The translations under genes and the position numbers were made by a program. From positions 41,402-93,955 of the IMG/VR virus record IMGVR_UViG_3300006622_000024: 52,554 nucleotides of DNA. One strand, given 5' to 3'. The stretch comes from a virus. Shown one piece after another: positions 16,438 through 44,178 of the stretch; position 1 is the stretch's first letter, and every line of letters begins with the position of its first letter. The notes under the pieces were generated by a model. The model was not told the origin of the DNA and made no database searches. It saw nothing but the letters and a program-made list of their open reading frames with translations.

Positions 16438-17510
16438 TTAATAGCTTTGACTTTTGGTAAATCTATTTTCTCTTTATCCTTCGGAGGAACTTTCCAAAAG
16501 CTATATAAACCTTTTTCTAATTCATATTCATCCCATACGAATCTTTCTCTCATAGGTTGCTTTTGTGCCCATTCCCACATTTTAGTTAATCCGTCTTTAA
16601 GCTCTGTTTTATCTTTATAGTCTAATATTACTTCAGACTTTTTATGAGTTGGATAAGCATCTTTTACTTCATGTCTTGCTTCTTTGAACACGACTGGTAT
16701 TCTTGATACATCTCCTCCGCCCATTACTTCTCTTAATATAGTACAAGCCTCATTAATAGTTGTAAATTTAGAGCCTCCTAAATTAATTATCTCCTTAGAA
16801 GATTCTTTTAGAAAAGCTGCTTTCCATAATGGTTCTAAACAGTCATCAATATAGCTCCATGCTCTCTTTTGTTCTCCATCTCCAAAAATAGTTAATGGTT
16901 CATTATTCATATACTGGTACATCCAGATACCTAATACATTTCTATACTTATCCCAGATGTTCTGCTTAATACCGTATACGTTATGAGGTCTAATAATAGT
17001 CCAATCAAGTCCGTGTTGCTCTCCTGCTGCTTGAATATCCATCTCACATGCAAATTTTGCTATACCATACGGGTCGATAGGTGCTGGAGGATCTGATTCT
17101 TCAAATGGTCTCTTACCTTCCCATCCATGTCCGTATACTGCCATAGTAGAAGTAAATACTAACCTATCCACATCCCACTTAATACATTCATTAACTATCT
17201 TAGCAGTAGCTTTAAGGTTATTGTCATAGTTGTACGCTCTTATAAAAGGTGATAATCCTTCTGCAGCATAAGCAGCAAAGTGAAATACTATATCAGGTTT
17301 ATGAGCTTCGAAAATATTTTCTATCGGATGATTAGCTAAATCCATCTGCCAGAAGTTTACCTCTTTATTAATATTTTCTCTATAGCCTCCGCTTAGATCG
17401 TCTACACCTACTACTTTACAGTTAGGATGATTTTCAATAATATAGTCAGCCAGTCTAGAGCCTAGAAGACCTCCTACACCTGTGATTAAGATAGTTTTGC
17501 TCTCTACCAT
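16434..17510 (-). CDS. NAD-dependent sugar epimerase/dehydratase (extended SDR)
   Basis: An extended SDR, 358 aa. The NAD-binding GVGGLLGSRLADYI occurs at about residue 11 and DDLSGGYRENI follows. The catalytic Ser/Thr lies in VFTSTMAVYG and the Tyr-Lys pair in DPYGIAKFACE. NVYG and IFGDGEQKRAWSYIDD are the usual UDP-glucose 4-epimerase-like substrate-side motifs. Together with the dehydrogenase two genes upstream it would interconvert nucleotide sugars for the surrounding transferases. Confidence 0.88.
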   Translation of the reverse strand: MVESKTILITGVGGLLGSRLADYIIENHPNCKVVGVDDLSGGYRENINKEVNFWQMDLANHPIENIFEAHKPDIVFHFAAYAAEGLSPFIRAYNYDNNLKATAKIVNECIKWDVDRLVFTSTMAVYGHGWEGKRPFEESDPPAPIDPYGIAKFACEMDIQAAGEQHGLDWTIIRPHNVYGIKQNIWDKYRNVLGIWMYQYMNNEPLTIFGDGEQKRAWSYIDDCLEPLWKAAFLKESSKEIINLGGSKFTTINEACTILREVMGGGDVSRIPVVFKEARHEVKDAYPTHKKSEVILDYKDKTELKDGLTKMWEWAQKQPMRERFVWDEYELEKGLYSFWKVPPKDKEKIDLPKVKAIK

Positions 17511-20948: not shown

Positions 20949-21410
20949 TTAACTTATTTGAAAGAATCCGATTTCTTCACAAGCATCCATAAAGTCACCT
21001 TGTTCAAATTTCTTACCGTTTAACACATCCATTTTATATTCTTGTTCCTTTGGAAATTTACCAGACTCTTTTTCTTCTTTAGTCAACGGTATTGCTTTTA
21101 CTGCTGCCCATTTCCAATCCTTTTTATTAGTCCCATCTACAAATACCATTCCTTTAGCTGGTAATGTTATTGTTGAAGGGAACCATACCTTACCGTCTTT
21201 GTCTGTGTGCATAAGGTCTTTATACAATTCAGGTGATGTTTCCATAAGATCAGTAACAGGTTTAGAACCTTCTGTCATTAATGTAGAAGTAGTATATCCG
21301 CTTCCAAAACATAACCAAGTAGTAACCTCTTTACCATCTTGAGTAAAGTTTTGCTCATAGCAAGCATTACTGCCAAATGGTCCGTCTACTAATTTATCTG
21401 TATTTATCAT
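20949..21410 (-). CDS. hypothetical protein, 153 aa
   Basis: A soluble, beta-rich protein with several Trp/Phe-Gly turns (TWLCFGSGYTTSTLM, KVWFPSTITLPAKGMVFVDG). No recognised family. It sits between two glycosyltransferases with 4-nt and 1-nt contacts, so it is in the same operon. Confidence 0.7.
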   Translation of the reverse strand: MINTDKLVDGPFGSNACYEQNFTQDGKEVTTWLCFGSGYTTSTLMTEGSKPVTDLMETSPELYKDLMHTDKDGKVWFPSTITLPAKGMVFVDGTNKKDWKWAAVKAIPLTKEEKESGKFPKEQEYKMDVLNGKKFEQGDFMDACEEIGFFQIS

Positions 21411-22648
21411 AACTGTGGTAATTTAAGTTCAACTAACTCAGGAAACTTAGGTAGCTTTTCCTCTAAGATATTATCTATCTTTTCTACCATATGTTCATAA
21501 GTAAATTCATTTAACGTTCTACGCTTCTGTTGTTTAGAAGAAGATAAGAACTTTTTATAGTGTTTGAAACTATCTCTTAATTTTTTTCCTAAGTCTATCG
21601 GGTCAGGAGTAAACCATTTCGATTCAGCTAAAATCATATCTTTAACCTGAGCTGATTTATCTACGTTTGTTAGGTTCCCTCCAATGAGAATACTTTTATC
21701 AGCATCTAAGAAATCAGTTTGACCAGACCAGCCTGAGGCAAGTATAGGCTTACCGGTTGTAGTAAACTCTAAAAGAGGTCTTCCGAACCCTTCACCTTTA
21801 GCGAGTGATAACATTACTTTAACTTTAGGGTGATTATATAAGTTGTTTATATTTTCATCTGTTAAATCACCATGAATTAAGTATATGTTAGGTAATCTAC
21901 CTTTAACTGTTCTTCTAATAGAGTTGATCTTCTCTAAGATTCTAGTTTGGTCTGATATAGAGCTCCCTACTTGCTGTGTTTTCAATATCAATGCTGGAGG
22001 GTTGTTTTTGTTCTTAAATGTTTCTAAGAATGCTTTAACCGTATAGCCTATATTCTTTCTATCTTCTCCTAGATTACCTTGCATCCAATGTCCTATTGTC
22101 AAATAGCAGAACTGTTCTTTAATATTAGATAAGTCTAATGTTGATTTAGTACTCTTGTACTTAGTTGTATCTACACCTTCAAATAGTACTTCGATATCTT
22201 TTGCAAGAGCTAACTTATTAACTGTCTTATTACCTTTGTCTTTTATATCGTAAGTAGTTTGTTGAAATACATTCTTCGAATGATTAGATGAGGTTAGTAT
22301 CAAATCCATTCTATTGCAACCTTCTAACCATTGAGGAGCAACTACTGTTGTTTCCATCCCAGCAGTACATCCTATATTAAACTTACCTACTCTTTGAAAT
22401 TCATTAGGTACTGTAATCTGCATCCATATATCTGGTTGCTTTTCTAATTTAGGAACAATACGACTGCTTAGAATATTATCATTATGATCTGATAGATACC
22501 CGAATCTTGTATTACCCCATCTTTGACTTAAGATAATAACTTCGTATTTGTCTGATGATATAATAGCTTTAACTAAGTCTCTAGATCTTGCTCCATAGCC
22601 GGAGTAAGTATCGATAGGACAGCTTATAGCGAATGTTGGCTTACTCAT
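21407..22648 (-). CDS. GT4-like glycosyltransferase (GT-B fold), 413 aa
   Basis: The N-terminal glycine loop is in PIDTYSGYGARSRDLVKAI. The C-terminal donor site has LSLAKGEGFGRPLLEFTTTG, with the GT4 E-x7-E acidic pair, followed by PILASGWSGQTDFL. Full length. It probably acts with the 482-residue transferase immediately upstream in successive glycan steps. Confidence 0.85.
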   Translation of the reverse strand: MSKPTFAISCPIDTYSGYGARSRDLVKAIISSDKYEVIILSQRWGNTRFGYLSDHNDNILSSRIVPKLEKQPDIWMQITVPNEFQRVGKFNIGCTAGMETTVVAPQWLEGCNRMDLILTSSNHSKNVFQQTTYDIKDKGNKTVNKLALAKDIEVLFEGVDTTKYKSTKSTLDLSNIKEQFCYLTIGHWMQGNLGEDRKNIGYTVKAFLETFKNKNNPPALILKTQQVGSSISDQTRILEKINSIRRTVKGRLPNIYLIHGDLTDENINNLYNHPKVKVMLSLAKGEGFGRPLLEFTTTGKPILASGWSGQTDFLDADKSILIGGNLTNVDKSAQVKDMILAESKWFTPDPIDLGKKLRDSFKHYKKFLSSSKQQKRRTLNEFTYEHMVEKIDNILEEKLPKFPELVELKLPQL

Positions 22649-22649
22649 A

Positions 22650-24098
22650 TTAATAACCTGTTAATTTATGTTTAATTTTTTTATCTGTACTTTCTTCTAC
22701 AAGAATAACATCGTACTCTACTCTAGGTTTAAAGTTATCGAATGTCTTATTAATAGCTTTGGCAATATTAATACACATATTCTTAGAAGACATTTGTGAT
22801 TCTTCAGATGTTACCCATTCTCTTCCTAGTAAACCTCTTCGTGTTCTTTCTTCTTTACCTAGTTCATAGGCTTTGACTAATTGGTTAGCAGCATCTGTAG
22901 AGGAGCATCTATCGTCAAATATATAAGGAGTATTAGGTGAACCTGCTAAACAAATATTCGAAGGAAAGATTGGTAGAGCCCATTCTCCACATTCCTTATA
23001 AGTACCTCTATGGTTAGATGGAAAGTCTGCATCGAAATCTATCCACTTGCCTTTTTCGTCTACGAATCTCATTTGATCTTGCATACCTCCAGTTACATTA
23101 CCAATTATCATAGTACCTGCCATCATAGACTCAGTTAATGCTAATCCCCATCCTTCATTAGATGACATCATAATAGTAGCATCTGCAACATTATATAGAA
23201 GATTCATCTGCTGAGGAGTAAGTTTATCTTTTGAGAAGAATATATTAACGTACTCTGGATCTGTTATAGCATCTTTAACTGCTTTAAGGTCCGTACCGTG
23301 TACGTCTGAGATGGCAGTATGCATAAGCAGAGCACATTTCTTAGCTTTCTCTTTGCCAATCTTATCACAAAATTCTTGATAAGCTAAAATAATATCACTA
23401 GGATGTTTACGTGCAATATTTCTAGAGTTAAAGAAAACTACAAACTCAATATCCTTTCCTTGAAATAAGTCTTTCTTATACTTTACAAAGTCATTAAATA
23501 AAGGATGCTTTTCGTCTACAGGGAAGAAGATCTCTTCATCAATACCGTGAGGTACATACTCTATAACTTTATCCTCAGCATCTTCTCCTAAAACTAATTT
23601 ATTAATGTTTTTAGTTTGTTTAGAAATAGCCATTAAACAATCTACTGAATTGTAATAAGGTTTATTGTACATTGGAGCAGGATAGTCATCCCAAATGTTT
23701 AACCATACGATAGGTATCTCACTTCTTATTTCTCTTTCAATATCAAATAACCAAGTCCAATACCTTGGATCAGTAAATATAAAAATTGCGTCTGGCTTCT
23801 GAGTGTTTAATAGCTGTCTAATTTTAGCTACATCTCCGTAACCATTATAAGGTTCAATTTTAACATTAGCATCATTGATACCTAATCTCTTATTGATATC
23901 TTCTGCTAGATCAAATACCTTGCCTTGGTCTGGGTGATTAATTCCGGCACCTAATTGATACCAATTAAAATGATTAGCAGTATTTACTACAAACTCTCTG
24001 GCCATAGTAGCAATGCCTGAATGCATTCTAATATCGTCACAGAGTAGTAAAACCTTTTTTCTATCCTTTTCAGGAATATAACCGAATTCTTTGCTCAT
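22650..24098 (-). CDS. GT4-like glycosyltransferase (GT-B fold), 482 aa
   Basis: The N-terminal substrate loop is in DDIRMHSGIATMAREFVVNT. The donor site near residue 320 is MMSSNEGWGLALTESMMAG, then GNVTGGMQDQM. The central PHGIDEEIFFPV matches a common GT4 motif. The gene is the first of the run of transferases. The ATG follows the stop of the RHH gene directly. Confidence 0.85.
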   Translation of the reverse strand: MSKEFGYIPEKDRKKVLLLCDDIRMHSGIATMAREFVVNTANHFNWYQLGAGINHPDQGKVFDLAEDINKRLGINDANVKIEPYNGYGDVAKIRQLLNTQKPDAIFIFTDPRYWTWLFDIEREIRSEIPIVWLNIWDDYPAPMYNKPYYNSVDCLMAISKQTKNINKLVLGEDAEDKVIEYVPHGIDEEIFFPVDEKHPLFNDFVKYKKDLFQGKDIEFVVFFNSRNIARKHPSDIILAYQEFCDKIGKEKAKKCALLMHTAISDVHGTDLKAVKDAITDPEYVNIFFSKDKLTPQQMNLLYNVADATIMMSSNEGWGLALTESMMAGTMIIGNVTGGMQDQMRFVDEKGKWIDFDADFPSNHRGTYKECGEWALPIFPSNICLAGSPNTPYIFDDRCSSTDAANQLVKAYELGKEERTRRGLLGREWVTSEESQMSSKNMCINIAKAINKTFDNFKPRVEYDVILVEESTDKKIKHKLTGY

Positions 24099-26519: not shown

Positions 26520-27713
26520 TTACATATACTTTATTGTGTTCTCATCGTCATCATCTTTGTTAATCCAACCTTCTGTACCGTCCATAAACTCTACTCTTCT
26601 TTTAGTAGGAGTCTTTTGTAAGATTCTTTTAACTCTTTTATCTGATTCTTCTGCTAATTCCCAATCATAATGTTCTCCTTCGTTTCCATTCTGACCTATA
26701 ACATTCATTCTTTTTTCTTCCTTTTCGCTATAATCTTTCAATGGATCTTCAGGAGGAGCGAAACCTCTTGCTTCATCAGGAAGTACTTCTTCAGATTCAA
26801 CTTCTAGTTCGTTTAGTACTTCTTCTTCTGATACTTCATCCCATGGATCATCATCCCATAAATCAGGCTCTATTTCATCTTCATACTCATTGTAAAGATT
26901 CTTTTTATTAGCTTGATCAAAAGCAAAGTTAGCTGCAACAACTAATGATATTGCTAAGGGATCAAATACAAAAATAATTATAAGAAGTAAAATATTGATT
27001 ATCTTATCCATAGGAGTTCCAGTTAGCCCAGATAGGTACTGTAATGGACCTAATTCACCTACGGTATCAGCATTATTCTGTAACTCTAATATTTGGAGTT
27101 TAAATTTCTGTAAGCTATCTGCAGCTATAGTTCTTTGAGCATTTACTGCTTTCCTATTATCTTCCTCAACTTTGATTCTACTTTGTGCCAAGCGTAACTC
27201 AGCAGTGGATACCGTGGATCTAACACCGCCCACAGCCGATGTGTCCCGTACCTGGATTGAGGTTGCCTTAGCACCACTGAGAGTACTAATATTGCCAGAA
27301 ATTCTTTCAAGTTCTTGATCATATCTAATTACATCGTCTTCATAAAACTTAGATTTATTTTCTAAGAATGATATTTGATTTTCTTGTATTTGAAGCTTTT
27401 GGTAGGTTTCTTGATAAGCTGCACTTAAAAATCCATATATACCCATACTAGTAATGATAACTAATATAGCGGCAGCGATAGTAAGATACGTTCTGAGATA
27501 CTTATTAATAGTATTCCAATACTGATATAGAAGAGAAGCTATAACTAGCTTAGCTACTTCTAAAGAACCAGCCATAATTATAACTTCAAAGCTTGCTCCA
27601 GCAAATAATTTACTTAACCCACTAACAGAATAGAATGCAGCAGACGCAGATACTGATAATGCAGAGAATGCAATTATCGCTGGAAATAAGTTACGTTTTA
27701 TTCTGTTTATCAT
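26520..27713 (-). CDS. large coiled-coil membrane protein, 397 aa
   Basis: Three N-terminal hydrophobic segments (about residues 10-30, 38-62 and 72-96) are followed by a long coiled coil (100-215) and a further TM helix (about 238-262, LLLIIIFVFDPLAISLVVAA). The cytoplasmic tail is very acidic. Similar membrane/coiled-coil proteins occur in large marine phages without known function. It begins at an ATGA overlap with the spanin-like gene, which suggests a lysis or envelope role. Confidence 0.75.
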   Translation of the reverse strand: MINRIKRNLFPAIIAFSALSVSASAAFYSVSGLSKLFAGASFEVIIMAGSLEVAKLVIASLLYQYWNTINKYLRTYLTIAAAILVIITSMGIYGFLSAAYQETYQKLQIQENQISFLENKSKFYEDDVIRYDQELERISGNISTLSGAKATSIQVRDTSAVGGVRSTVSTAELRLAQSRIKVEEDNRKAVNAQRTIAADSLQKFKLQILELQNNADTVGELGPLQYLSGLTGTPMDKIINILLLIIIFVFDPLAISLVVAANFAFDQANKKNLYNEYEDEIEPDLWDDDPWDEVSEEEVLNELEVESEEVLPDEARGFAPPEDPLKDYSEKEEKRMNVIGQNGNEGEHYDWELAEESDKRVKRILQKTPTKRRVEFMDGTEGWINKDDDDENTIKYM

Positions 27714-28144
27714 TGTACTAGCAATAAGAGGACAGCTGCTGCTCCAACAGTAGTTCCTATCTTATAAATAGTCGACTGTCGCTTTTGTCTCTTAAGTGCT
27801 ACTTCAAAATCCTTAGTTAACGAAGCTTGAGTGTCGTATTTTTTGTTTAATTCTTTAATCACAGACTCTAAATTATTATTCTGTAACTCTAAATTAACTA
27901 CTAATTGATTCTGTGTTATTAACTTGTTATTTGTTTCAGTTAATATTGTTTGCATTGTCTGCATTTCAGTTGATAAACCATCAAACTGAATAAGATCTTT
28001 TATAACTAACTTAGCTATAGGCTTAGTTAATTGAATCTTGGTCTGTGTACTGTCTGTAGCGTTCTGCGAAAAAGCGTTCAAGCTCATCATCGCCGAAACT
28101 ATCAACAGCATCAAGTTTCTTCTCAGTTTCTTTTTTGATAACAT
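27710..28144 (-). CDS. spanin-like exported coiled-coil protein, 144 aa
   Basis: A cleavable signal peptide (LMLLIVSAMMSLNAFSQ) is followed by a periplasmic coiled coil (residues 60-118) and a C-terminal TM segment (IGTTVGAAAVLLLLV). Signal peptide plus C-terminal anchor is the layout of a membrane-bridging spanin. No lipobox is seen. Its first 122 nt overlap, in another frame, the upstream gene, an arrangement typical of Rz/Rz1-type pairs. Confidence 0.65.
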   Translation of the reverse strand: MLSKKKLRRNLMLLIVSAMMSLNAFSQNATDSTQTKIQLTKPIAKLVIKDLIQFDGLSTEMQTMQTILTETNNKLITQNQLVVNLELQNNNLESVIKELNKKYDTQASLTKDFEVALKRQKRQSTIYKIGTTVGAAAVLLLLVQ

Positions 28145-28391
28145 AAATTCTAGAATTTAACTTATTGATTTTAATATCGTACTCACTAATCTTTACATTT
28201 AATGAGTCGGCTTGCTCTGCTAATACAGTATTCTTTATGTTAAGAGAGTCTACTTTCTTCTCTAGTAACTGTATCTTGAGCTCGTATGATTCAACGTCAA
28301 CTTCTATTTTTGGTTGACCCCATATCATCCAGGCAACAAATCCTCCTAATATAGCAAATAGAAGGTATCCCTGTAGTCCTTTAGTATTCAT
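28023..28391 (-). CDS. inner-membrane spanin-like (Rz-like) protein, 122 aa
   Basis: A single N-terminal TM anchor (YLLFAILGGFVAWMIWG) is followed by a long periplasmic heptad coiled coil (residues 30-95), as in i-spanins. It is immediately downstream of the endolysin gene, with its 3' third overlapping the next gene in a different frame. The order endolysin, i-spanin, partner is standard. Confidence 0.7.
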   Translation of the reverse strand: MNTKGLQGYLLFAILGGFVAWMIWGQPKIEVDVESYELKIQLLEKKVDSLNIKNTVLAEQADSLNVKISEYDIKINKLNSRIYVIKKETEKKLDAVDSFGDDELERFFAERYRQYTDQDSIN

Positions 28392-28418
28392 AACTATAAT
28401 ATAATAATTTTATTTTTA

Positions 28419-29030
28419 TTAGACAACTATGTCCTTACTTTCTATTAAAGTATAGGTAAATGAGTTGCTCCAAGCATCTTTTGCTTTATTACAAATTTCC
28501 ATGAATAATCGGAAATCGTCGTTGGCAGCAATGACTTGACAGCCTGCTGACCATTTATCAATTTGAGTAGATGTTCTACCTTCGTATTTCGTAGCTCTAT
28601 GTATATTGATACCGTAAATACCTTCCTGTACATTTTCCTCTAATAAATCGTATTTACCGTCTTTATTTTTATCTCTATATACTTTTACAGGCTTTTGTTG
28701 CCTTAATGCTTCGTATTTACCTTGGTGAAGACCTATTTTATGTGACCCTCTATACTGACCAGGTTTAAGAATAGCTACTCCATCTTTATTAAGTAGATTC
28801 TTTTCCCAATGTGAACCTGGATCTGTAGTAGCGCCAAAACAATGAAACTTCTCTTCACCGTCTAAGTTGTATGAAACCGTTAAACAGTCATCAAACCTAT
28901 TGGTAACTACTCCTAAAGTATCTGAATTTCTAACTCCTACAATGTTTAAATTGTAATTACCACTCTCAAACCATTTGTAACCTTTTGCGATTACGGCTTC
29001 TTTAATTTGTTTTCTTGTATAACAATCCAT
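28419..29030 (-). CDS. endolysin-like protein with SxGC (L,D-transpeptidase-type) motif
   Basis: 203 aa. The C-terminal half has GIYGINIHRATKYEG followed by KWSAGCQVIA. This His plus S-x-G-C pair is the YkuD/L,D-transpeptidase catalytic signature, which is used in several Bacteroidetes phage lysins to cut or rearrange peptidoglycan crosslinks. There is no N-terminal signal, so it would need the holin for export. It sits in order with two holin-like genes upstream and the spanin-like pair downstream. Confidence 0.75.
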   Translation of the reverse strand: MDCYTRKQIKEAVIAKGYKWFESGNYNLNIVGVRNSDTLGVVTNRFDDCLTVSYNLDGEEKFHCFGATTDPGSHWEKNLLNKDGVAILKPGQYRGSHKIGLHQGKYEALRQQKPVKVYRDKNKDGKYDLLEENVQEGIYGINIHRATKYEGRTSTQIDKWSAGCQVIAANDDFRLFMEICNKAKDAWSNSFTYTLIESKDIVV

Positions 29031-29043
29031 TTTTTTATTTTAT

Positions 29044-29280
29044 TTAATCTTTTCTACCTTCTAAAAATCCTTTTTCGTATTGAAGTTCTTTTTCTATATC
29101 GACTATTCTATCTTCTAATTCATTGATTACTTTTATCTTCTTGTCTAGTCTTTCGTGTACTGTGGTAAGTTCCGCTTGTAATGCAGTAAATTGAGCAAAT
29201 ATAGTACCGGCTGTAAAAATAGCAGCTAATAACCCAACTACTATTGACCAATTGTTTGCTAAAAACTTATTAAGGTTCAT
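29044..29280 (-). CDS. small membrane coiled-coil protein (lysis-associated), 78 aa
   Basis: One TM helix (residues about 9-28, WSIVVGLLAAIFTAGTIFA) followed by a coiled coil. I chose the ATG MNLNKF because it has an AAGGAAGAA ribosome-binding site; a longer version would need a TTG start and overlap the upstream gene. It could be a second holin or an antiholin. Confidence 0.65.
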   Translation of the reverse strand: MNLNKFLANNWSIVVGLLAAIFTAGTIFAQFTALQAELTTVHERLDKKIKVINELEDRIVDIEKELQYEKGFLEGRKD

Positions 29281-29296
29281 TTCTTCCTTTGACACT

Positions 29297-29551
29297 CTAT
29301 TCTTTTTTACCAAAAATCTTACCTACTTCAGCAATACCAAAAGAACCTAATGTTATAATCACAAAAGAGTTGTAGATAAATTCTTGTATTACTAAATCTT
29401 TACCAAAAAATCCAGTAACTATATCAGCTACTGCAAATATTACCATTATTAGGAATGAAGCAAATCCAACTACTGATTTTTCGTTGATATCATTCTCGTC
29501 TTTAAATATGTCTTTAAAAGCCATCCATTTACGTTTTAAATAATTTAACAT
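29297..29551 (-). CDS. holin-like protein, two TM segments, 84 aa
   Basis: A basic N-terminus, two hydrophobic helices (SVVGFASFLIMVIFAVADIV; IYNSFVIITLGSFGIAEV) and a short charged tail match class II holin topology. It is directly upstream of the endolysin block. A GCTATTTATA box precedes it by about 30 nt, consistent with late expression. Confidence 0.7.
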   Translation of the reverse strand: MLNYLKRKWMAFKDIFKDENDINEKSVVGFASFLIMVIFAVADIVTGFFGKDLVIQEFIYNSFVIITLGSFGIAEVGKIFGKKE

Positions 29552-29582
29552 AAATAACTAATTTAGTGAAACAATCTTTAGT

Positions 29583-29590
29583 ATAAATAG
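29583..29590 (-). promoter_or_regulatory. class II TATTTATA box before the lysis genes
   Basis: The coding-strand context is GCTATTTATACTAAAG. It lies between the acidic outer-membrane protein gene and the holin-like gene, where a late lysis promoter would be expected. Confidence 0.5.
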
Positions 29591-29593
29591 CTT

Positions 29594-31336
29594 CTAGAAT
29601 GCGAATCTGGATCCTATAGTAATAGCATAAGACATTGGGATACCAGGTTGAGTATTACCAATTACTGTTCCTCCTATGTTAGCATTAAATCTCTGAGATA
29701 ATTTAAAGTCGAAGTTGCTTCCTATAATATATGTACCGTACTCAGACCATATAGGTGTCTTTGCTTGGAATGCATATGTAAATGGAGAATGAGAATAAGC
29801 AAGCATTGGAGAAATTACTACTCTATCTTTTATAGGGAACGGCTTAGTACCAAAAGCAGTAAAGGCTGCTGTTGTAACAACTTCTCCTCCTTCTAAAAAT
29901 ACTCCCATACCTGTTAGAGCAAAACCTCCTACAAAGCCTTTCCAGAAGTTATCTTTTTGTCCCATATATACATTGCTAATACCAGCTGTTGCTATATGAG
30001 TTGAATACATTTTCATATAGCCAGCTGATACTGATTGTACCATCATTATAGTACCTTGATCATGATAACTACCAAACTTATAGTATTCCATAGTATCTGG
30101 ATCTAATACCATTATAGGTACTTCCTTGTCATAATTAAAGTATACAGAGCTTTGAGAAAAGTTTATACTAAATTGCTGTAGGTTAGACCAAACCATTCCA
30201 TTTACTGAGTATGTCTCTTTACCTGTCAAGGAAGATTGAGAGTATCCGAATGATGCTGCTTGTTGTAGCACACCATCCATCATTTGCATAGTTACAAGGT
30301 TGGCTGTAACAATAGGAGGTGCAAGTCTCTTTTCTTTTTTGTCCTCATCTTCTTCTTCTTCATCCTCATTATCGCTTTTCTTTTGTTCCTCATCTTCATC
30401 TTCATCTTCAGATTCCTCTTTGTCAGACTTCTCTTCATCTGATTCTTCCTCTGAGTCCTCTTCTTTGCTCTTGTCATCGTCTTTTTTTTCTTCATCTTCT
30501 ACTTCTTCTTTAGATTCTTTTTCAGACTTTTCATCACTGCTCTCTTCTTTATTTTCATCACTTTTCGAATCACCGCTACTTTCTTCTCCTTCGCCGCTTG
30601 AATCACTTTCGGTTTCTCCTGACGAATCACCATCGCTGCTATTTCCATCCCCAGAAGAGTTATCTGAATCTGATGAACCACTATCATTATCCGAGCTAGT
30701 ATCCCCAGACGAACCTTCACTCCCTGAAGATCCGCTATCGCCTCCAGAGTCTCCGGATCCATTTCCTCCCGAGTTATCGTTTCCAGTATTTCCTGAATCC
30801 CCTCCTGAGCTATTTGATGAGCCTGAGCTTCCGCTGGAGTTACTTCCAGAGGAACTTGAATTAGAACCTTGCCCTCCTGAGCTTCCTGATGTTGATCCTG
30901 TATTTCCATTTGTATTTGTATTAGTTGAACCAGTGTTTGTACTGCCAGTATTAGCAGTCCCGGTCGTACCGGTTGTTCCAGTACTACCTGTTGCTCCTGA
31001 TGTAGCATTATTAGCTGCATTAGTAGCGTTCTGTGTTGCTTGATTTGTTGTTTGTTGAGTAGTTTGAGAAGAAGCGTTACCGGTAGAGCATGGTGATAAA
31101 GCTTGGTACCATGCATAAGTTTCTTCAAGCCATGCTTGTAAGGTACCATTAGTAAACTCAGTAGAAGTAAATACTCTTGATTTATTATAATAAGCGACTG
31201 CTGTTTGTCCGCCCATTTGAACAGTAAATACTTTTACCTCTCCGGTACATCTATCTGTATAGGTTTGAACGAGGGTCTGACTATGACCCTCGAACATCCC
31301 CATCGCAGCAATTACTAAGAATAGTAACCTTCTCAT
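29594..31336 (-). CDS. acidic low-complexity protein with C-terminal outer-membrane barrel
   Basis: 580 aa from the ATG at 31334-31336 (signal peptide RRLLFLVIAAMGMFEGHS). Residues about 20-80 form a small domain (TDRCTGEVKVF, two Cys). Next come an Asn/Thr/Gln-rich and a Gly/Ser-rich stretch, then a Ser/Asp run that grades into Glu/Lys/Asp blocks (to about residue 335). The last 240 residues look like amphipathic beta strands with a terminal Phe (SRFAF), as in outer-membrane barrels. It would display a long, highly charged linker at the envelope. A longer TTG start is possible but overlaps the CsgG-like gene. Confidence 0.75.
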   Translation of the reverse strand: MRRLLFLVIAAMGMFEGHSQTLVQTYTDRCTGEVKVFTVQMGGQTAVAYYNKSRVFTSTEFTNGTLQAWLEETYAWYQALSPCSTGNASSQTTQQTTNQATQNATNAANNATSGATGSTGTTGTTGTANTGSTNTGSTNTNTNGNTGSTSGSSGGQGSNSSSSGSNSSGSSGSSNSSGGDSGNTGNDNSGGNGSGDSGGDSGSSGSEGSSGDTSSDNDSGSSDSDNSSGDGNSSDGDSSGETESDSSGEGEESSGDSKSDENKEESSDEKSEKESKEEVEDEEKKDDDKSKEEDSEEESDEEKSDKEESEDEDEDEEQKKSDNEDEEEEDEDKKEKRLAPPIVTANLVTMQMMDGVLQQAASFGYSQSSLTGKETYSVNGMVWSNLQQFSINFSQSSVYFNYDKEVPIMVLDPDTMEYYKFGSYHDQGTIMMVQSVSAGYMKMYSTHIATAGISNVYMGQKDNFWKGFVGGFALTGMGVFLEGGEVVTTAAFTAFGTKPFPIKDRVVISPMLAYSHSPFTYAFQAKTPIWSEYGTYIIGSNFDFKLSQRFNANIGGTVIGNTQPGIPMSYAITIGSRFAF

Positions 31337-31346
31337 AACATTTAGA

Positions 31347-32108
31347 TTAGTGATCAAATATTTTCTTTCGTATCATTCTTTTAACGATCTTAGCAACTGC
31401 TGTCTCTAATGCTTTACGTGTTGATACACCAATCGATGATTGATTGAAAGACACTTCTGATAAATTTTGATCATTAAGTAAGGTCATCTCTCTAGTAGTT
31501 GTAGCGAGTCCTAATCCCGAACCAGTCATATATAGACCAGTTTGAGCATCGACCATTTTAACTTGAAGTCCAAGTCTGGTCACAAGAGTATTTTTTACTC
31601 CGTCTTTTAAATTAATAGTTTCATCTTCAGATATAGAAAAGTCATATATCTCTACATAAGCGAAATATTGAGCAAGAGTAATCTTACCTCTTATCTCTAT
31701 TTCATTTGCAGTAAAGCCTTTCTGAGATGCTTTGAACTGTACAATCATACGGTCCTTTATCTCATCTTTAGTTTCTACAAATTCAAATCTAAAAGTTTCA
31801 TCTAAAAAAGCTACAGTGATATTTGTTAGACCTAAGCCTACACGGTAGTCTCCTAATTCTGGATACTGTAGCAATATGTCATCTGTTAAACCTACGTCTA
31901 GAAGGGCTACTGGTACTGGATCACCAAAGTACTCTGGAATTGAGTATAACGAGGCTTGTCTCTCGAATTCCGCTTGATAATTCTCAGTAGTAGTCTTTCC
32001 GACGACTTGTCCATTTATATACCCTATACTAAATAATAGTATAAGGAATATTCTAATATCCAAGGGTGTCGAATACCCCGAACGTAGCGTTGTCAAAGTC
32101 AGCTTCAC
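31347..32108 (-). CDS. CsgG-like secreted protein (curli-transport superfamily)
   Basis: The mature part has the CsgG/penicillin-binding-LpoB-like pattern: VGLGLTNITVAFLDETFRF, a central EIRGKITLAQYFAYVEIYDF, then VTRLGLQVKMVDAQTGLYM (the usual 'V.D..TG' strand). KALETAVAKIVKRMIRK is the final amphipathic helix. The signal peptide (IRIFLILLFSIGYINGQ) has no lipobox Cys, unlike true CsgG. The ATG gives 253 aa but overlaps the upstream gene by 56 nt. A TTG at 32061-32063 would start right at the signal peptide and is a plausible alternative. If pore-forming, it would be an outer-membrane export channel. Confidence 0.7.
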   Translation of the reverse strand: MKLTLTTLRSGYSTPLDIRIFLILLFSIGYINGQVVGKTTTENYQAEFERQASLYSIPEYFGDPVPVALLDVGLTDDILLQYPELGDYRVGLGLTNITVAFLDETFRFEFVETKDEIKDRMIVQFKASQKGFTANEIEIRGKITLAQYFAYVEIYDFSISEDETINLKDGVKNTLVTRLGLQVKMVDAQTGLYMTGSGLGLATTTREMTLLNDQNLSEVSFNQSSIGVSTRKALETAVAKIVKRMIRKKIFDH

Positions 32109-32280
32109 CGGTAATTAGTCCTACGACTAATGTGGTCCATCCGACAATAAACAATAAAAATAAGCTAGATACCCATACTAGCAAAAATGCTTGCCAAATT
32201 TTCAGTAATAAAGTTGGCTGCTTAAATATTTCTTCATATATTTCAATGAAAGGGTTTGCGAAAAAGTTAATTACATTCAT
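32053..32280 (-). CDS. small membrane protein, 75 aa
   Basis: An amphipathic N-terminus (MNVINFFANPFIEIYEEIF) followed by one long hydrophobic segment (residues about 24-57), which may be one or two TM helices, and an acidic tail. The ATG at 32278 was chosen because the longer reading starts inside the preceding gene. Its 3' end overlaps the CsgG-like gene in another frame. Confidence 0.65.
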   Translation of the reverse strand: MNVINFFANPFIEIYEEIFKQPTLLLKIWQAFLLVWVSSLFLLFIVGWTTLVVGLITGEADFDNATFGVFDTLGY

Positions 32281-32296
32281 AGTTTTTAATTTTAGG

Positions 32297-32557
32297 TTAC
32301 CATTCAAACTCTTTTTTCTTAGGAGGCTCCGGTTTTGCGACAACTGGAGTCTCTTTTTTTATAACTACAATAGTATCCTTGCTGCTTTCTTTCTGTTCGA
32401 AAGGATCAGATACTATCTCTTGTTTTACATCTTCGTCTCCTCCGATGATTTTTTCCATGTTAGCAATAAAAAGTCCACCTGCAGTTGTAATAGCTAAGGT
32501 TACGACTCCTATTATTGCTTTTTTAATTTCTCCAAATGAGTTATCTTTATCTGCCAT
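32297..32557 (-). CDS. single-TM protein with Pro/Lys-rich tail, 86 aa
   Basis: One TM segment (residues 12-33, AIIGVVTLAITTAGGLFIA), then an acidic stretch and a VAKPEPPKKKEFEW tail. The Pro/Lys tail resembles periplasm-spanning linkers of TonB-like proteins but is much shorter. It is part of the continuous envelope gene run. Confidence 0.65.
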   Translation of the reverse strand: MADKDNSFGEIKKAIIGVVTLAITTAGGLFIANMEKIIGGDEDVKQEIVSDPFEQKESSKDTIVVIKKETPVVAKPEPPKKKEFEW

Positions 32558-32558
32558 A

Positions 32559-32933
32559 CTAATCTATCATTGTAAAGGATTCTATTCCTAATACGTTATT
32601 AAAGTTATCTGTAATGTGAACTTGATAAGAACTTTTATCAAGAGCTGTAGTATAAATGTTTAATAAGTTATCACCGACTGTTGCTGTAATCTTATCTTGT
32701 GATACTACTTTACCACTTATATCTATTATCTTAATTCTATAAGTACCTTCTACGTCGAACTTAGCATTTATTGCTACTTTGTTAGTTACAATTGCACTCT
32801 CTAATTTTAGTCCGATAGGGTCTACTATTTGTAATGCATCTGGTACTTCAGTAAAAGGTGCTTCAAATTCTAATTCGTCTTTAGCACATCCTAATAGGAT
32901 TAGTAATGCTAGTAATGTTGTAAGTTTTTTCAT
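32559..32933 (-). CDS. lipoprotein with T9SS-sorting-domain-like fold, 124 aa
   Basis: A lipoprotein signal peptide with lipobox LLGC at residues 13-16. The second half (TYRIKIIDISGKVVSQDKI, then GDNLLNIYTTALDKSSYQVH) closely follows the pattern of Bacteroidetes type IX secretion C-terminal sorting domains ('v.iyD.sGk.v', 'G.n.i.l..L..G.Y.v.i'). Here it is followed by 16 further residues, so use as a sorting signal is uncertain. It supports a Bacteroidetes host. Confidence 0.75.
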   Translation of the reverse strand: MKKLTTLLALLILLGCAKDELEFEAPFTEVPDALQIVDPIGLKLESAIVTNKVAINAKFDVEGTYRIKIIDISGKVVSQDKITATVGDNLLNIYTTALDKSSYQVHITDNFNNVLGIESFTMID

Positions 32934-32939
32934 ATTATT

Positions 32940-34628
32940 TTAGTATTGGAATTTAACTTTAGTTCCGTCTGCTTTAACTCCTTCTATGATTTTAAAGCTT
33001 ACTAGTCCTGCAGTATTTGTTATATTTTCGTTCGGTGTAAAAATTAATCTATAAGGTCTTCCTGTATCTACTGATACATCGCCGTTAAAATCTAAAGAAC
33101 CAAATGATACTACGTTACCTTTTACTGTACCGAAGTTAGTCATATTAGATCCTGTATCATAAACAATATCATCTAAAGTTAGAATATTATTATCAAATAC
33201 AATCTTAAACTGAGAACCAACTAATCCAGCTGTGTCTAAATTTACATCTACAATTACTTGTCCGTCAACAAGAGATGATGTTAAATCGATCTCTTCTGTT
33301 TCTACTGATCTATTAGCAATTACTGAATAAGCTTGTGCATTTCTAGCAGATGTAGATTGAGCATTTGAACTATTAAAAGTAGGTACAGTTGAATGAGAGA
33401 AATCTAAATCTCCTCTTAGTCCATGTCCTATAGTAAAGGACTTATTTTCTTCTGTTGCAGTAAAAGTACGAGCACCCATAAACTCAGATATGTCTCCGTA
33501 TGTATCCATTAAAGATGAGAAGTTAAATGCTCCATTATCTTTAGAAGTTACATTAGAACTTGTCTCTACTCCATTTACATGAGCAAGTAATTCATATGAA
33601 TCATCAAAGTTTACTTGACCATCGTTAGTTACTTCTCCTAATATAGCTTGTACTTCATGCTCCCAGTTAGCTGCTCCTCCTCCAGGACCGTCAGTAGATC
33701 CTAAAGAAAATTGGAATGCTTTATAAACGTCTGTTACCGTTACTACATCATCTAACCAGTCTGGGTTTCCAGTAACATATGTATGTACCCATACTTCTTC
33801 GTTTAATGTTAAAGTAGCAAGAGAAGTAGTTCCATTACCGTTAAAGCCTCCTGTAGCAAAAGGTGTTTCACCACTCTTAGGTTCTAAACCGTCATTAACA
33901 CCGTCTCCATCATAATCAATTTCTTCTAACTGACTAGCTGTATATATAGCGTATTCATAGTCTGTTTCATAGTCTGTAGGTATACTCAAGTTTAATGTAA
34001 CGTCACCTGCACCTACTCCACCTGGGTCTAGTCCTATTTGGTGATTAGTAGATGTTAACTCATACACAGTATTGTCTCTGTTATCTTTAAATTCAGCCCA
34101 GTTAATTTGAAAAGCACCAGAGTAGTTTTGGTAGTCGGTACCTTGTCTATCTAAGATTTTAAATTTCATAGTTAAGACTGCATCATATAAGTTAATGTCT
34201 TCTGAGGCTTGAATAGTGTATCTATTAACTGAATAATCTGGATTTGTAGGATAAGAATTAGAACCTGCTGCGGAAGCTCCAGAAAACCACCATAAGAACT
34301 GTCTGTATAAGTTATAAGTAAAGTATTCAAAATCAGGATTAAACTTATACCCATCCCAGTGTGATCTAGCAGACTGTTCGTTAGATAATTTATTTAATGG
34401 ATCTATAGTATGGCTTACATATTCTATTAATTTGTTATTCCACTGAATGTCGAAACGTAGAAATGTTCCTGGCATAGTCGATTGTCCTGAGGGAGGAAAT
34501 AATTCAAATTTAAGTTCAATTTCTTCCCCTACGTCAGCATCTGCTCCGTAGTTCATACCAACCTTGAAGTCTTGTGCCAATGCTATCGCCGGTAATGTTA
34601 ATAATAAAAATAATAATTTTTTCATCAT
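32940..34628 (-). CDS. secreted cohesin/dockerin-like protein, 562 aa
   Basis: A clear signal peptide (KKLLFLLLTLPAIALAQ). Residues about 20-170 form a beta-sandwich resembling a cohesin-like domain. DYDGDGVNDG (about 238) is a calcium-binding type-3 repeat. GEVTNDGQVNFDDSYELLAH (about 330) matches half of a dockerin repeat (GDVNxDGxVNxxD). The last 95 residues (VDVNLDTAGLVGSQFKIVFD) resemble a cohesin domain. The combination suggests non-covalent assembly of a surface structure. The start overlaps the upstream stop as TGATG. Confidence 0.75.
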   Translation of the reverse strand: MMKKLLFLLLTLPAIALAQDFKVGMNYGADADVGEEIELKFELFPPSGQSTMPGTFLRFDIQWNNKLIEYVSHTIDPLNKLSNEQSARSHWDGYKFNPDFEYFTYNLYRQFLWWFSGASAAGSNSYPTNPDYSVNRYTIQASEDINLYDAVLTMKFKILDRQGTDYQNYSGAFQINWAEFKDNRDNTVYELTSTNHQIGLDPGGVGAGDVTLNLSIPTDYETDYEYAIYTASQLEEIDYDGDGVNDGLEPKSGETPFATGGFNGNGTTSLATLTLNEEVWVHTYVTGNPDWLDDVVTVTDVYKAFQFSLGSTDGPGGGAANWEHEVQAILGEVTNDGQVNFDDSYELLAHVNGVETSSNVTSKDNGAFNFSSLMDTYGDISEFMGARTFTATEENKSFTIGHGLRGDLDFSHSTVPTFNSSNAQSTSARNAQAYSVIANRSVETEEIDLTSSLVDGQVIVDVNLDTAGLVGSQFKIVFDNNILTLDDIVYDTGSNMTNFGTVKGNVVSFGSLDFNGDVSVDTGRPYRLIFTPNENITNTAGLVSFKIIEGVKADGTKVKFQY

Positions 34629-35095
34629 AATTTAAGTTTACGTATTAAGTCTTCACAGAGTTTCTTTATTGCTGTCGAGACGTTAGCCTGTGAAAACTTA
34701 CCGCCTTGATCTATAATTAATGTTGCAGTAGATATAGATTTTGCTGTACCTTTAGCAACTGCTTTTTTCTTTTTCTTGCCGTCTACATAATATACGCCTC
34801 TAGCGATGATCTGATAGATATCGATATTTTTTCCGTAGACTCCTACTTGAAAATTGTTCTTCTGAACATCAAAGTAAAGTAGTTCTACTTCCAGCAAATT
34901 ATTTGAGTTTGGGTTAAGATCGTATCCATAGTCTTGGATAACTTCCTCTAATACATTCTTGACTCCGAATGCAAGGTCTCGATTACCTACGAGGTCTCCC
35001 AGTACGATGTTATTTTGTACGTCACCTATATTCAGTTCTTGCCCATAGAAGGAAGTGCTAAAAAGGAGACATAATAAAATTACTATTATTCTCAT
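34625..35095 (-). CDS. secreted protein of the CsgG-like module, 156 aa
   Basis: A signal peptide (VILLCLLFSTSFYGQ) followed by an alpha/beta domain: LAFGVKNVLEEVIQDYGYDL, LLEVELLYFDVQKNN, IARGVYYVDGKKKKK, then a final ANVSTAIKKLCEDLIRKL helix. The architecture looks like small lipoprotein-type partners that accompany CsgG-like or LptE/YajG-like proteins, but there is no lipobox and I cannot name a family. It is the first gene of the envelope module. Confidence 0.65.
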   Translation of the reverse strand: MRIIVILLCLLFSTSFYGQELNIGDVQNNIVLGDLVGNRDLAFGVKNVLEEVIQDYGYDLNPNSNNLLEVELLYFDVQKNNFQVGVYGKNIDIYQIIARGVYYVDGKKKKKAVAKGTAKSISTATLIIDQGGKFSQANVSTAIKKLCEDLIRKLKL

Positions 35096-35236
35096 ATAAT
35101 GCTGCTTTGCGACTGCAACGATTATAAAACGTTTGTTGAAAAACGATTGAAAAGAAAACGGTTACCATATACAGGGGTCGCCCTGTTAATCGATTATAAA
35201 TATATGTTGGTCGAAGAAAATGACAATTTTTTACAT
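35096..35236. other. gene-free stretch upstream of the envelope module
   Basis: About 140 nt between the terminator at 35237 and the ATG at 35095. On the minus strand it holds an ATATTTATA box near 35203-35210, then a GC-richer segment (GGGCGACCCCTGTATATGG) and a GTTG-N17-TATATG element ending at the ATG. No coding frame is convincing. It probably carries the promoter and a leader of about 100 nt for the secreted-protein operon. Confidence 0.5.
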
Positions 35237-35261
35237 AAAAAAAGGGGCAATAAATGCCCCC
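35237..35261 (-). terminator. strong Rho-independent terminator
   Basis: On the minus strand: GGGGCA stem, 5-nt loop, TGCCCC, then seven T. It follows the zinc-ribbon gene at 35300-35518 and separates it from the envelope module. Confidence 0.88.
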
Positions 35262-35299
35262 TTAATTATTCTTCATAGTCGTGAGTGCCAGGATGGCTA

Positions 35300-35518
35300 T
35301 CAGTCAAGAGATTGTATTTCCTTTGGAAGGAAGTCTTTATTGACGTGTCCGCATGCTGAGCATTTGAAGACTGGGATCGGAATGAGGGTGGGTTTCGTCT
35401 GACCAGTGAGGATTCCTGATGCTTTTCTAATGACGAGTGCTTGTTCGAAGTAAGTCCCATTACATTCTTCACATAAAACCGGAGTTGTTTGATTAAAGTC
35501 AACATTTAAATTCTGCAT
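35300..35518 (-). CDS. zinc-ribbon protein, 72 aa
   Basis: Two knuckles, CEEC (residues 16-19) and CSAC (about 53-56), are separated by a basic hydrophobic segment (QALVIRKASGILTGQTKPT). This is a common small phage zinc-ribbon layout. The Cys pairs support this frame over an overlapping 79-codon frame. The gene is followed by a strong terminator. Confidence 0.75.
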   Translation of the reverse strand: MQNLNVDFNQTTPVLCEECNGTYFEQALVIRKASGILTGQTKPTLIPIPVFKCSACGHVNKDFLPKEIQSLD

Positions 35519-35520
35519 AC

Positions 35521-35856
35521 TTATCTTTTAGATTTGTAGTACCCTTTACCAGCTTTAGATCCTCCTTTTTTTGCTGGTGCTTTTCTCGTACCACTCTTCT
35601 TATAGTAATCCTTCCCGGAACTAGCTTTTGGCTTTCTGCCTCTTCTTGCTGGTTTTTTCTTCAAGTCGTCGATTTTGTCTTCAACTTGCTTCTTAACTCT
35701 ACGAGCTGTCTTTTTTCCTTTTTCGACTGCTTCCTCAACTTCATCAGGAATACCGTCTTTGTCTTTGTCTGCGAATAGCCCAAATTTCTTTGTGGCTACG
35801 TAAATAGCTCCTGCAATAACAGCAAGAACTAAAATAATAACTAAAATTGTTTTCAT
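35521..35856 (-). CDS. membrane-anchored Lys/Arg-rich protein, 111 aa
   Basis: An N-terminal TM helix (ILVIILVLAVIAGAIYVA), then DKDKDGIPDEVE, an EF-hand/thrombospondin-type-3-like calcium loop, then a strongly basic tail with RRGRKPK (AT-hook-like) and KKSGTRKAPAKKGG repeats. A basic tail on a membrane anchor could bind DNA or the membrane surface. A GCTATTTATA box lies about 30 nt upstream. Confidence 0.7.
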   Translation of the reverse strand: MKTILVIILVLAVIAGAIYVATKKFGLFADKDKDGIPDEVEEAVEKGKKTARRVKKQVEDKIDDLKKKPARRGRKPKASSGKDYYKKSGTRKAPAKKGGSKAGKGYYKSKR

Positions 35857-42230: not shown

Positions 42231-43868
42231 TTATCCCATTAACATTTGCGGATCCAGTTCATTGCTGGTTTTCTTCTTTTCTTTCCCAGTACTAACTACT
42301 GCTTCAGTAATTAATAATGTACCCGCTACAGATGCAGCATTCTCTAGAGCTAATCTAGTTACTTTAGTAGGATCAATAATACCTTCCTTAAACATATTAA
42401 AGTAGTCTTGTTCTCTAGGATTATAACCGTACCAGAAGTCACCGTCTTCCTTAATCTTAAGCTCTATATCACCAATGTCATCATTAGTATATCCAGCATT
42501 AAGTAGAATTTTGTAAAAAGGTCTTTCTAAAGCTGAGATGATAATGTCATATCCGGTTTGCTCATCGCCTTCTAAACCGCCGATTTGGTCTACCAGTAAC
42601 ATTGAAGCATTCAATAGAGCAATACCACCACCAGGTAAGATACCTTCTTCTAATGCTGCTTTCGTTGCATGAAGAGCATCTTCAACTCTATCCTTCTTCT
42701 CTTTCATCTCAACTTCAGTCATTCCCCCTACATGAACAATAGCTACTCCTCCGATAAAGGTTGCTAAACGTTCTTGTAGTTTCTCTTTTTCATAAGGAGA
42801 ATTAGTCTCATCAATTAGAGTTTTAATATCCTCTACTCTATTAGTGATTGATTCCTCATCTCCTTTGGCATCAATGATAGTAGTAGTTTCTTTAGAAATG
42901 GTAACTTTGTTAGCTTTACCTAACCATTCACCTTGAAACTTATCTAGTCTCATTCCTTTTTCTGTAGATACTACTGTACCACCTGTTAGAATTGCAATGT
43001 CTTCTAACATATCTTTTTTCCTATCTCCAAAGCTTGGAGCTTTAACAACAGCACAGTTAAGAATACCTCTCATCTTATTAACTACCATAGTAGAGAGTGC
43101 CTCTCCATCAATATCATCTGCAATGATTAATAGTGATTTACTTTGCTGAGAAACTGATTCTAAGACAGGTAATAATTCTTTGACTGAGTTTAATCGTTTG
43201 TCAGTAATTAAAACATACGGAGATTGAAGAACAGCAGTCATTGTGCTATTATCTGTAACGAAGTATGGAGACTTATAACCTCTGTCGAACTGTACTCCTT
43301 CGACTGTTTCTAAATATGTTTCTCCAGTTTTAGACTCTTCAATAGTCACAACTCCATCTTGCCCAACTTTATCCATAGCAGTGGAAATTAACTCACCTAT
43401 TTCGGTATCGTTGTTAGCTGAAATCGTGGCAATCTGTTTTAGCTGTTCTTCATCCGTAATTTCTTTTGATTTATCTTCTAAATACGTCACTACATCCTTT
43501 ACTGCTTTATCGATACCTCTTTTGATATCTACAGCATTCTGTCCTTTCTTCATGAAATCTAATCCGTCATTAAGAATAGCTTGCGCTAATAATGTAGAGG
43601 TTGTAGTACCGTCACCTGCTTGTTCAGCAGTCTTAATTGATGCTTGTTTTACTATCTGGGCTCCTAGATTCTCTACTTTATTTTTAAGTTCAATAGACTT
43701 TGCTACTGTGACTCCGTCTTTAGTAGATACAGGCATTCCCATATCTTGTTCAATAATTACATTCCTTCCGGAAGGTCCTAAGGTTGATGTTACTGCATCT
43801 GCTAGTTTATCAACTCCGTCAGCTAGTTTATTCCTAGCGTCTTTTGAAAATGTTATCTTTTTACTCAT
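42231..43868 (-). CDS. groEL: GroEL-type chaperonin, 60 kDa
   Basis: 545 aa, full length. ATP-site motifs are TLGPSGRNV, DGTTTSTLLAQ and the catalytic Asp in VEDALHATKAA. GILPGGGIALLNAS follows. The apical domain (FDRGYKSPYF, LLIIADDIDGEAL, VKAPSFGDRKKDMLED) is intact. The C-terminus lacks the GGM repeats of bacterial GroEL and ends QMLMG. It overlaps groES by 8 nt. It would form a folding chamber, probably for bulky virion proteins, with the phage GroES or the host's. Confidence 0.97.
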   Translation of the reverse strand: MSKKITFSKDARNKLADGVDKLADAVTSTLGPSGRNVIIEQDMGMPVSTKDGVTVAKSIELKNKVENLGAQIVKQASIKTAEQAGDGTTTSTLLAQAILNDGLDFMKKGQNAVDIKRGIDKAVKDVVTYLEDKSKEITDEEQLKQIATISANNDTEIGELISTAMDKVGQDGVVTIEESKTGETYLETVEGVQFDRGYKSPYFVTDNSTMTAVLQSPYVLITDKRLNSVKELLPVLESVSQQSKSLLIIADDIDGEALSTMVVNKMRGILNCAVVKAPSFGDRKKDMLEDIAILTGGTVVSTEKGMRLDKFQGEWLGKANKVTISKETTTIIDAKGDEESITNRVEDIKTLIDETNSPYEKEKLQERLATFIGGVAIVHVGGMTEVEMKEKKDRVEDALHATKAALEEGILPGGGIALLNASMLLVDQIGGLEGDEQTGYDIIISALERPFYKILLNAGYTNDDIGDIELKIKEDGDFWYGYNPREQDYFNMFKEGIIDPTKVTRLALENAASVAGTLLITEAVVSTGKEKKKTSNELDPQMLMG

Positions 43869-44178
43869 TATCTGATTCTTTTACAACTGCTAATACTTCT
43901 TTATCTTGTGCTAGGTAATATTCTTCTCCTTCAAAATCAATACGTAGTGTACCAATTTTTGGAACAAGTACTATATCTCCTACTTTACAAGATCTAACTG
44001 AAATAATTTTACTTGGGTCCAATTCTGACTGGCGTCCAGGACCAACTGCTAATACTTCTCCCATTTCGGGTTTTTCTTTCCCCATATCTGGGATAACGAT
44101 GTTACCGTATGTTTGTTCCCCTTCATCTATAGGACGAATCAGAATACGGTCATTTGATGGTGATAGTGTTTTTGTCAT
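43861..44178 (-). CDS. groES: GroES-type co-chaperonin
   Basis: 105 aa. SPSNDRILIRPIDEGEQT is the N-terminal strand. The mobile loop is YGNIVIPDMGKEKPEMGEVL with the hydrophobic IVI triplet that binds GroEL, followed by VGPGRQ and a C-terminal YYLAQDKEVLAVV. It is slightly longer than host GroES (about 92-97 aa), with extra residues in the roof-loop region. It has its own class I-like promoter. Confidence 0.95.
   Translation of the reverse strand: MTKTLSPSNDRILIRPIDEGEQTYGNIVIPDMGKEKPEMGEVLAVGPGRQSELDPSKIISVRSCKVGDIVLVPKIGTLRIDFEGEEYYLAQDKEVLAVVKESDNE

Follow-up and report, generated by a model that had tools for sequence, protein, structure and literature searches.

Closest described systems

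The curli type VIII pore CsgG/CsgF, together with the phage versions found in pelagimyophages (PMC7029224) and in Melnitz (PMC9004378), is among the closest described counterparts of a set of seven minus-strand genes located in a 52,554-nucleotide stretch of viral DNA, hereafter the window, which represents bases 41402-93955 of the 93955-base linear virus record IMGVR_UViG_3300006622_000024. The likeness lies in a CsgG fold (predicted here), in being phage-encoded and in the envelope location, with lysis or aggregation proposed as the function. A further counterpart is the cargo of the type IX secretion system (T9SS) in Cryophage (PMC7468147), comprising phage proteins that bear sorting domains of T9SS type A, one of them together with PA14, while cellulosome scaffoldins and dockerins are alike in their architecture of cohesin, X-module and dockerin. 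The periplasmic proteins PelC, LptE, FlgT and GNA1162 share a fold group with the CsgG-like protein encoded in the window, but rank below CsgG as matches to it.

The seven-gene module differs from each of these systems. Compared with the curli and phage CsgG/CsgF pores, its CsgG-like protein shows no significant CsgG sequence similarity, lipobox or apparent membrane hairpins, matches to CsgF, CsgE, CsgA and CsgB are lacking, and cohesin-dockerin and T9SS-type proteins are added. Cryophage carries single variable cargo genes, whereas the module is a conserved multi-gene set with a scaffold, a CsgG-fold pair and a barrel-like protein. Unlike cellulosomes, it is phage-borne, recognition heads replace the enzymes, there are no catalytic modules and cohesin-dockerin binding is putative. 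The same module is present in Flavobacterium phage vB_FspM_immuto (immuto; gp013-gp019), with lectin, cohesin, CsgG-like and barrel-like genes mostly annotated as hypothetical and a scaffold split in two, the second part of which carries the fused sorting domain. No description of a phage cohesin/dockerin module, or of this gene set, was found in the open-access literature searched; the phage CsgGF operons and phage T9SS cargo cited above are the nearest published cases, neither of them described with this set.

We suggest, with about even confidence, that these first seven genes of a longer run encode a trans-envelope surface-display complex of a lytic Bacteroidota phage. In the order of transcription, the genes and domains are:

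34625..35095 (-): g156, short secreted paralogue of the CsgG-like protein, CsgG-fold/YajG-like (hhalign, Pfam, NCBIfam)
32940..34628 (-): g562, scaffold of 562 amino acids (aa) with signal peptide, cohesin-like domain, X-like module, dockerin-like duplication and C-terminal cohesin-like domain (PDB profile, hhalign)
33579..33761 (-): dockerin-like region of g562, about residues 290-350 (invariant Asp300 and Asp343)
32943..33293 (-): C-terminal cohesin-like domain of g562, about residues 446-562 (profile comparison)
32559..32933 (-): lip124, lipoprotein with a domain that resembles the C-terminal sorting domain of T9SS cargo (lipobox Cys16, sub-threshold profile matches)
32297..32557 (-): tm86, putative inner-membrane anchor with a periplasmic proline/lysine-rich tail and Trp as last residue (transmembrane (TM) segment)
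32053..32280 (-): tm96, small two-TM protein, likely 75 aa (open reading frame (ORF) as listed 96 aa, start 32343; hydropathy, close relatives 74-75 aa)
31347..32108 (-): CsgG-fold secreted protein of 253 aa with signal peptide and Q34, encoded by the best-conserved module gene (AlphaFold2, Foldseek)
29594..31357 (-): sde587, 587 aa, with signal peptide, two-Cys N-terminal domain, low-complexity then acidic linker and putative C-terminal outer-membrane barrel (conservation)

Conservation and gene order of the module

An IMG/VR scan with the 253-aa CsgG-like protein yielded 43 loci, while a broader alignment used as query matched 363 relatives, 80 of which were kept; in two overlapping IMG/VR scans the gene family numbered 363 and 336 matches. 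The locus analysis comprised 127 loci picked by their CsgG-like gene, including a full-flank subset of 86 with at least 6 kb on each side. Some ORFs of 192-196 aa that had first been labelled as scaffold are probably non-specific endonucleases (one confirmed) and were excluded from the recount. Scaffold, CsgG-like and barrel-like genes occur together in 85/86 full-flank loci and stay linked while scaffold identity drops to 19-40%. Furthermore, tm86 is present in 79/86 and g156 in 85/86 of these loci, the latter upstream in 31 and downstream in 54. The block is therefore conserved in relatives.

Two gene-order types can be distinguished among the 127 loci. Type A, to which the window and its relatives belong, has the order g156, scaffold, lipoprotein, tm86, small TM gene, CsgG-like gene and sde587. 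Type B mostly consists of a scaffold to which the sorting domain is fused, tm86, in many cases a TM gene, the CsgG-like gene, an sde587-like gene, usually a dockerin protein, and g156; its members include several contigs of 250-430 kb, immuto as the cultured representative and, within a metagenome-assembled genome of the Bacteroidetes, a phage-like contig. The scaffold is split into two genes in immuto and a few other type B loci. Among 50,697 phage records, matches were restricted to isolates of immuto, the sole cultured phage species with the module. While a tblastn search of the phage records with the 562-aa protein gave no match, a type B relative of this protein used as query recovered immuto. 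No chromosomal copy of the CsgG-like family was found in the 396 Bacteroidota genomes sampled, where the only clear match was a short phage-like contig (G001); two further matches were marginal (E 0.002 and 0.007), one of them viewed briefly, as DNA only.

A tail or baseplate role for the module was rejected. The structural matches are located elsewhere, with those to tail and baseplate proteins falling in L045/L046 among the proteins scanned, and the module lies outside the tail cluster, far from the tail, baseplate and tail-fibre genes of G000. In immuto, it adjoins DNA-metabolism genes. The two checks named in the initial annotation, on a tail or baseplate assignment and on block conservation, left that annotation standing.

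Export signals

Thirteen minus-strand ORFs follow in succession from position 35095 down to 26520 of the window, and 12/13 carry an export or membrane signal in a hydropathy scan (not SignalP), compared to 7/75 of the other ORFs (Fisher P = 7e-10, computed with 13/14 inside where 12/13 is correct, the conclusion being unchanged). The exception without a signal is the endolysin (28419-29030). The start codons of some listed ORFs are too far upstream. Conservation of the signals among homologues is stronger evidence than their enrichment within the window. A hydrophobic h-region followed by Gln (Q) is found in 125/127 CsgG-like homologues, 106/109 g156 homologues, 183/187 scaffold/dockerin homologues and 128/129 sde587 homologues. 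This amounts to 97-99% across the four families, while the membrane protein tm86, used as control family, shows such a start in 5/113 cases (4%). Most signal peptidase I substrates of the Bacteroidetes expose Gln, the Q-rule of this phylum (PMC5837995, PMC10653852), and Porphyromonas phages, too, have been noted to encode exported proteins that follow it (PMC10367356). We regard the conserved Q-rule starts of the four families as strong evidence that these proteins undergo Sec export in a Bacteroidota host. The hydropathy scan and homologue conservation thus bear out the initial annotation, in which all of the thirteen genes but the endolysin gene carried export or membrane signals.

The CsgG-fold pair

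Membership of the CsgG family by sequence was rejected, as neither a search against PF03783 nor a PDB profile search gave a match for the CsgG-like protein, and hhalign of its family against 21 Flavobacteriaceae CsgG sequences gave a P of about 0.06. The AlphaFold2 model built from 50 homologues (pLDDT 77.8, pTM 0.68) has E. coli CsgG (4uv2; E 5.9e-8, prob 1.00) as its top Foldseek match in the PDB and a phage CsgG as its best viral structural match, with HP0492/HpaA, GNA1162, FlgT, PelC and LptE ranking lower. A model of low quality, built earlier from 17 sequences (pLDDT 52), was discarded. Since the global TM-scores against most CsgG chains are only about 0.40-0.47, the modelled relationship to CsgG is one of fold.

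Judged from the sequence and the predicted elements of the monomer, the family has near-invariant Glu161 and Asp162 and an invariant Glu163 at the position of the first CsgG hairpin and a short polar loop at that of the second; the protein probably has a CsgG fold without a barrel of its own. The family lacks a lipobox and has the Q-rule signal peptidase I site instead. No Pfam match to CsgE, CsgF, CsgA or CsgB was obtained among the module proteins scanned or the small TM genes of the lysis part, which were also scanned. The protein is CsgG-like in its predicted fold, has no significant sequence similarity to CsgG, and the membrane hairpins are apparently absent. The initial proposal of a system for export across the outer membrane is not upheld if CsgG is taken as the model, given the missing lipobox and second membrane hairpin, the non-hydrophobic first hairpin and the lack of CsgE, CsgF, CsgA and CsgB among the module proteins scanned.

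The secreted 156-aa protein, initially described as a partner of the CsgG-like protein, has a signal peptide and is identified by hhalign as its short paralogue, the two families aligning with signal peptides removed (96%; P 3.6e-9). Its matches to YajG of Pfam (E 0.001) and NCBIfam (E 4e-4) are both below cut-off, while Q19 is invariant in 17 homologues.

Scaffold, putative anchors and heads

The g562 profile matches PDB cohesins (E 0.003-0.04) and a dockerin (E 0.05), with dockerin PDB profile matches across g562 and its homologues at E 0.05 and 0.002. The protein aligns with its type B relatives over 437 columns (hhalign 98.9%; P 3e-17, or 3e-12 without signal peptides). Pfam cohesin is above cut-off in the homologues at L070 and L049 and in immuto gp015, and Pfam Dockerin_1 is below cut-off in the type B relatives, where the PDB profile matches agree with cohesin plus dockerin. 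The cohesin/dockerin assignment is as such clearer in the homologues, for cohesin more than for dockerin, than in the protein of the window, where it is weak.

A T9SS sorting domain (TIGR04183/PF18962) is above cut-off in type B relatives and immuto, so that the T9SS-like part of the initial annotation is clear in relatives but sub-threshold in the window, where it concerns lip124. This protein aligns with the sorting domain of the relatives at P 3e-4 (prob 40%) in hhalign; 42/44 of its homologues have a lipobox and Cys16 is invariant. Scaffold-borne sorting domain and lip124 co-occur in 0/127 loci: lip124 is present in 31/31 type A loci and the scaffold motif in none of them, while the motif is present in 38/55 type B loci and lip124 in none. 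This mutual exclusion in all 127 loci suggests that they may be alternative anchors.

In type B loci, a conserved dockerin base carries exchangeable heads, namely C-type lectin, lectin plus LamG, PA14, GEVED and Ig (Ig-plus-lectin), and immuto has a lectin-dockerin gene upstream of the module. The exchange of heads on a common base points to the recognition of variable surfaces.

Membrane proteins and sde587

The tm86 family is present in 113/127 loci, and its C-terminal residue is Trp in 113/113 cases. In 124/127 loci, the CsgG-like gene is followed at once or almost at once by a homologue of sde587. The two-Cys N-terminal domain of sde587 is conserved, and the protein has no match in Pfam, NCBIfam or PDB. 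The C-terminal part may form an outer-membrane barrel, as read from its C-terminal Phe pattern only. Of the initial description as an SD/E-rich protein with a barrel, the acidic linker is present, while the barrel remains a suggestion with neither a family match nor strand-alternation support.

Lysis neighbours and transcription

The six remaining genes of the run are:

29297..29551 (-): holin-like two-TM protein (hydropathy; related family in 48/127 loci)
29044..29313 (-): single-TM coiled-coil protein of the lysis cassette (hydropathy)
28419..29030 (-): endolysin, no export signal (PHROG 3000, E 1e-35; PHROG 33083 endolysin, E 1e-17)
28023..28391 (-): N-terminal TM coiled-coil protein, spanin-like by architecture, overlapping in a different frame with the gene that follows
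27710..28144 (-): secreted coiled-coil protein with a hydrophobic segment at the C-terminus and the architecture of a spanin partner (hydropathy)
26520..27713 (-): multi-TM coiled-coil protein, no role assigned (hydropathy; family in 31/127 loci)

The Rz/Rz1 spanin label is one of architecture only. Across loci, the lysis genes are less regular than the module. They are its neighbours and lie outside the conserved core, and the first seven genes are a module separable from the lysis cassette. The proposal of a self-contained envelope or surface module beside lysis genes is supported.

An intrinsic terminator is located upstream of the module:

35241..35263 (-): intrinsic terminator with 9-bp stem and T run

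Promoter-like hexamers are found at 35199-35226, although the promoter scan as a whole was not above chance. A terminator occurs within 300 bp upstream of g156 in 18/40 type A loci, compared to 33/775 control stretches. Because terminator and promoter-like hexamers lie upstream, the module probably starts a transcription unit. No terminator was found between sde587 and the holin-like gene, and the two observations together fit co-expression of the module with the lysis genes.

Proposed function and alternatives

The synteny, export signals, domain homologies and predicted CsgG fold described above underlie the following scheme, the rest of which we infer. The module would probably be expressed late, with the lysis genes, and the host Sec pathway and signal peptidase I would export g156, the scaffold, the CsgG-like protein and sde587, in line with their conserved Q-rule signal peptides. 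The CsgG-fold pair may then form a ring or adaptor beneath the outer membrane, sde587 would supply the part in that membrane and tm86 would tie the complex to the inner membrane, and the complex would help to place the cohesin-dockerin scaffold on the cell surface. In relatives, the fused sorting domain could allow display outside via the host T9SS, while in the lineage of the window display may depend on the lipoprotein lip124 with its similar domain. Cohesin-dockerin pairing would link scaffold copies mutually or to dockerin-tagged lectin heads, and the likely use would be to cover the infected cell before lysis with an adhesive or masking layer that serves aggregation or particle attachment, or that blocks superinfection. 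More tentatively, and with more doubt than confidence, we propose a phage-specific surface-assembly system in which a cohesin-dockerin scaffold with exchangeable lectin heads and a host T9SS or lipoprotein anchor, together with the CsgG-fold/tether complex, captures neighbouring cells or particles or excludes rival phages.

Several observations weigh against surface display. The strand-alternation test for the sde587 barrel was not discriminating and gave no support, g562 itself matches neither cohesin nor dockerin at Pfam level, and lip124 matches Por_Secre_tail below the cut-offs of both Pfam (E 8e-5) and NCBIfam (E 0.002). No lectin-head protein was recognised beside the module in the window. 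The dockerin-head proteins have no recognised sorting domain, and their passage across the outer membrane is therefore unexplained. Furthermore, the locus counts are not independent, as the loci are related by descent and were selected through their CsgG-like gene. Endolysins of either of two unrelated families (GH19 and PHROG 3000 type) are found within 9 kb in at least 77/127 loci, many others being cut short, and this proximity fits a lysis role equally well.

Such a role is the main rival, although we consider it unlikely: the CsgG-fold proteins, tm86, sde587 and the small TM proteins would make up a pore or tether, timed to rupture or open the outer membrane, with the cohesin proteins as structural parts. 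Besides the endolysins, the position of the module directly before the holin/endolysin genes of the window, the holin-like TM genes within or adjoining it, the absence of a recognised terminator before the holin-like gene and the lysis role proposed for the CsgGF pores of Melnitz (PMC9004378) are in its favor. However, spanin-like genes are already present in the window and several relatives, lectin, PA14 and LamG heads and T9SS tags are not needed for lysis, and the endolysin family switches while the module persists. Decoration of virions, whereby the exported proteins would bind released particles at lysis and aid attachment to glycans or cells, appears improbable. The lectin, PA14 and LamG domains are known from adhesion proteins and joint release would bring proteins and virions into contact, but Sec signal peptides exclude the proteins from cytoplasmic virion assembly, and the genomic position given above, distant from baseplate and tail-fibre genes in G000 and beside DNA metabolism in immuto, also argues against it. 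T9SS commonly exports glycan-degrading enzymes, and this, with the likeness to cellulosomes, would suit the uptake of nutrients or macromolecules, or an enzyme platform (mini-cellulosome) secreted in the service of the infected cell. No catalytic domain was found on any dockerin protein examined, however, and the separate non-specific endonuclease near some loci has no recognised dockerin; this alternative appears slightly less probable still.

If surface display is correct, phages would rebuild the host surface with a self-made protein scaffold, via the host T9SS, shortly before lysis. It would also give a name to a gene family with several members in phage contigs of 250-430 kb, and the hypotheses on phage CsgG-type genes, namely aggregation ("sibling capture"), superinfection and lysis, could be put to the test in one cultured system, immuto with its host Flavobacterium sp. 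LMO8.

Neighboring genes

A small zinc-ribbon-like protein with two CxxC motifs is encoded at 35300-35518 of the window (in a relative, L049:14842-15084) and adjoins the module in both types, while a single-TM protein with a strongly basic repetitive tail is encoded just upstream of the module (35521-35856). A DNA/RNA non-specific endonuclease gene is located beside the module in some loci (L125:13176-13757, PF01223 E 2e-26; also L044:9935-10513), and immuto gp012, likewise beside the module, is annotated as a nuclease. Elsewhere, the window encodes a phage GroEL (42231-43868; PHROG 5725, E 4e-165), and the small ORF adjoining its gene (43861-44178) may be a candidate GroES. PHROG matches identify two nucleotide-sugar epimerases and two glycosyltransferases (16434-17510, 44772-45680, 21407-22648 and 22650-24098), which suggests surface-polysaccharide or DNA modification. 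Finally, a GTP cyclohydrolase is encoded at 49824-50735 of the window and QueC in immuto (L044:18607-19488), hinting at 7-deazaguanine DNA modification.

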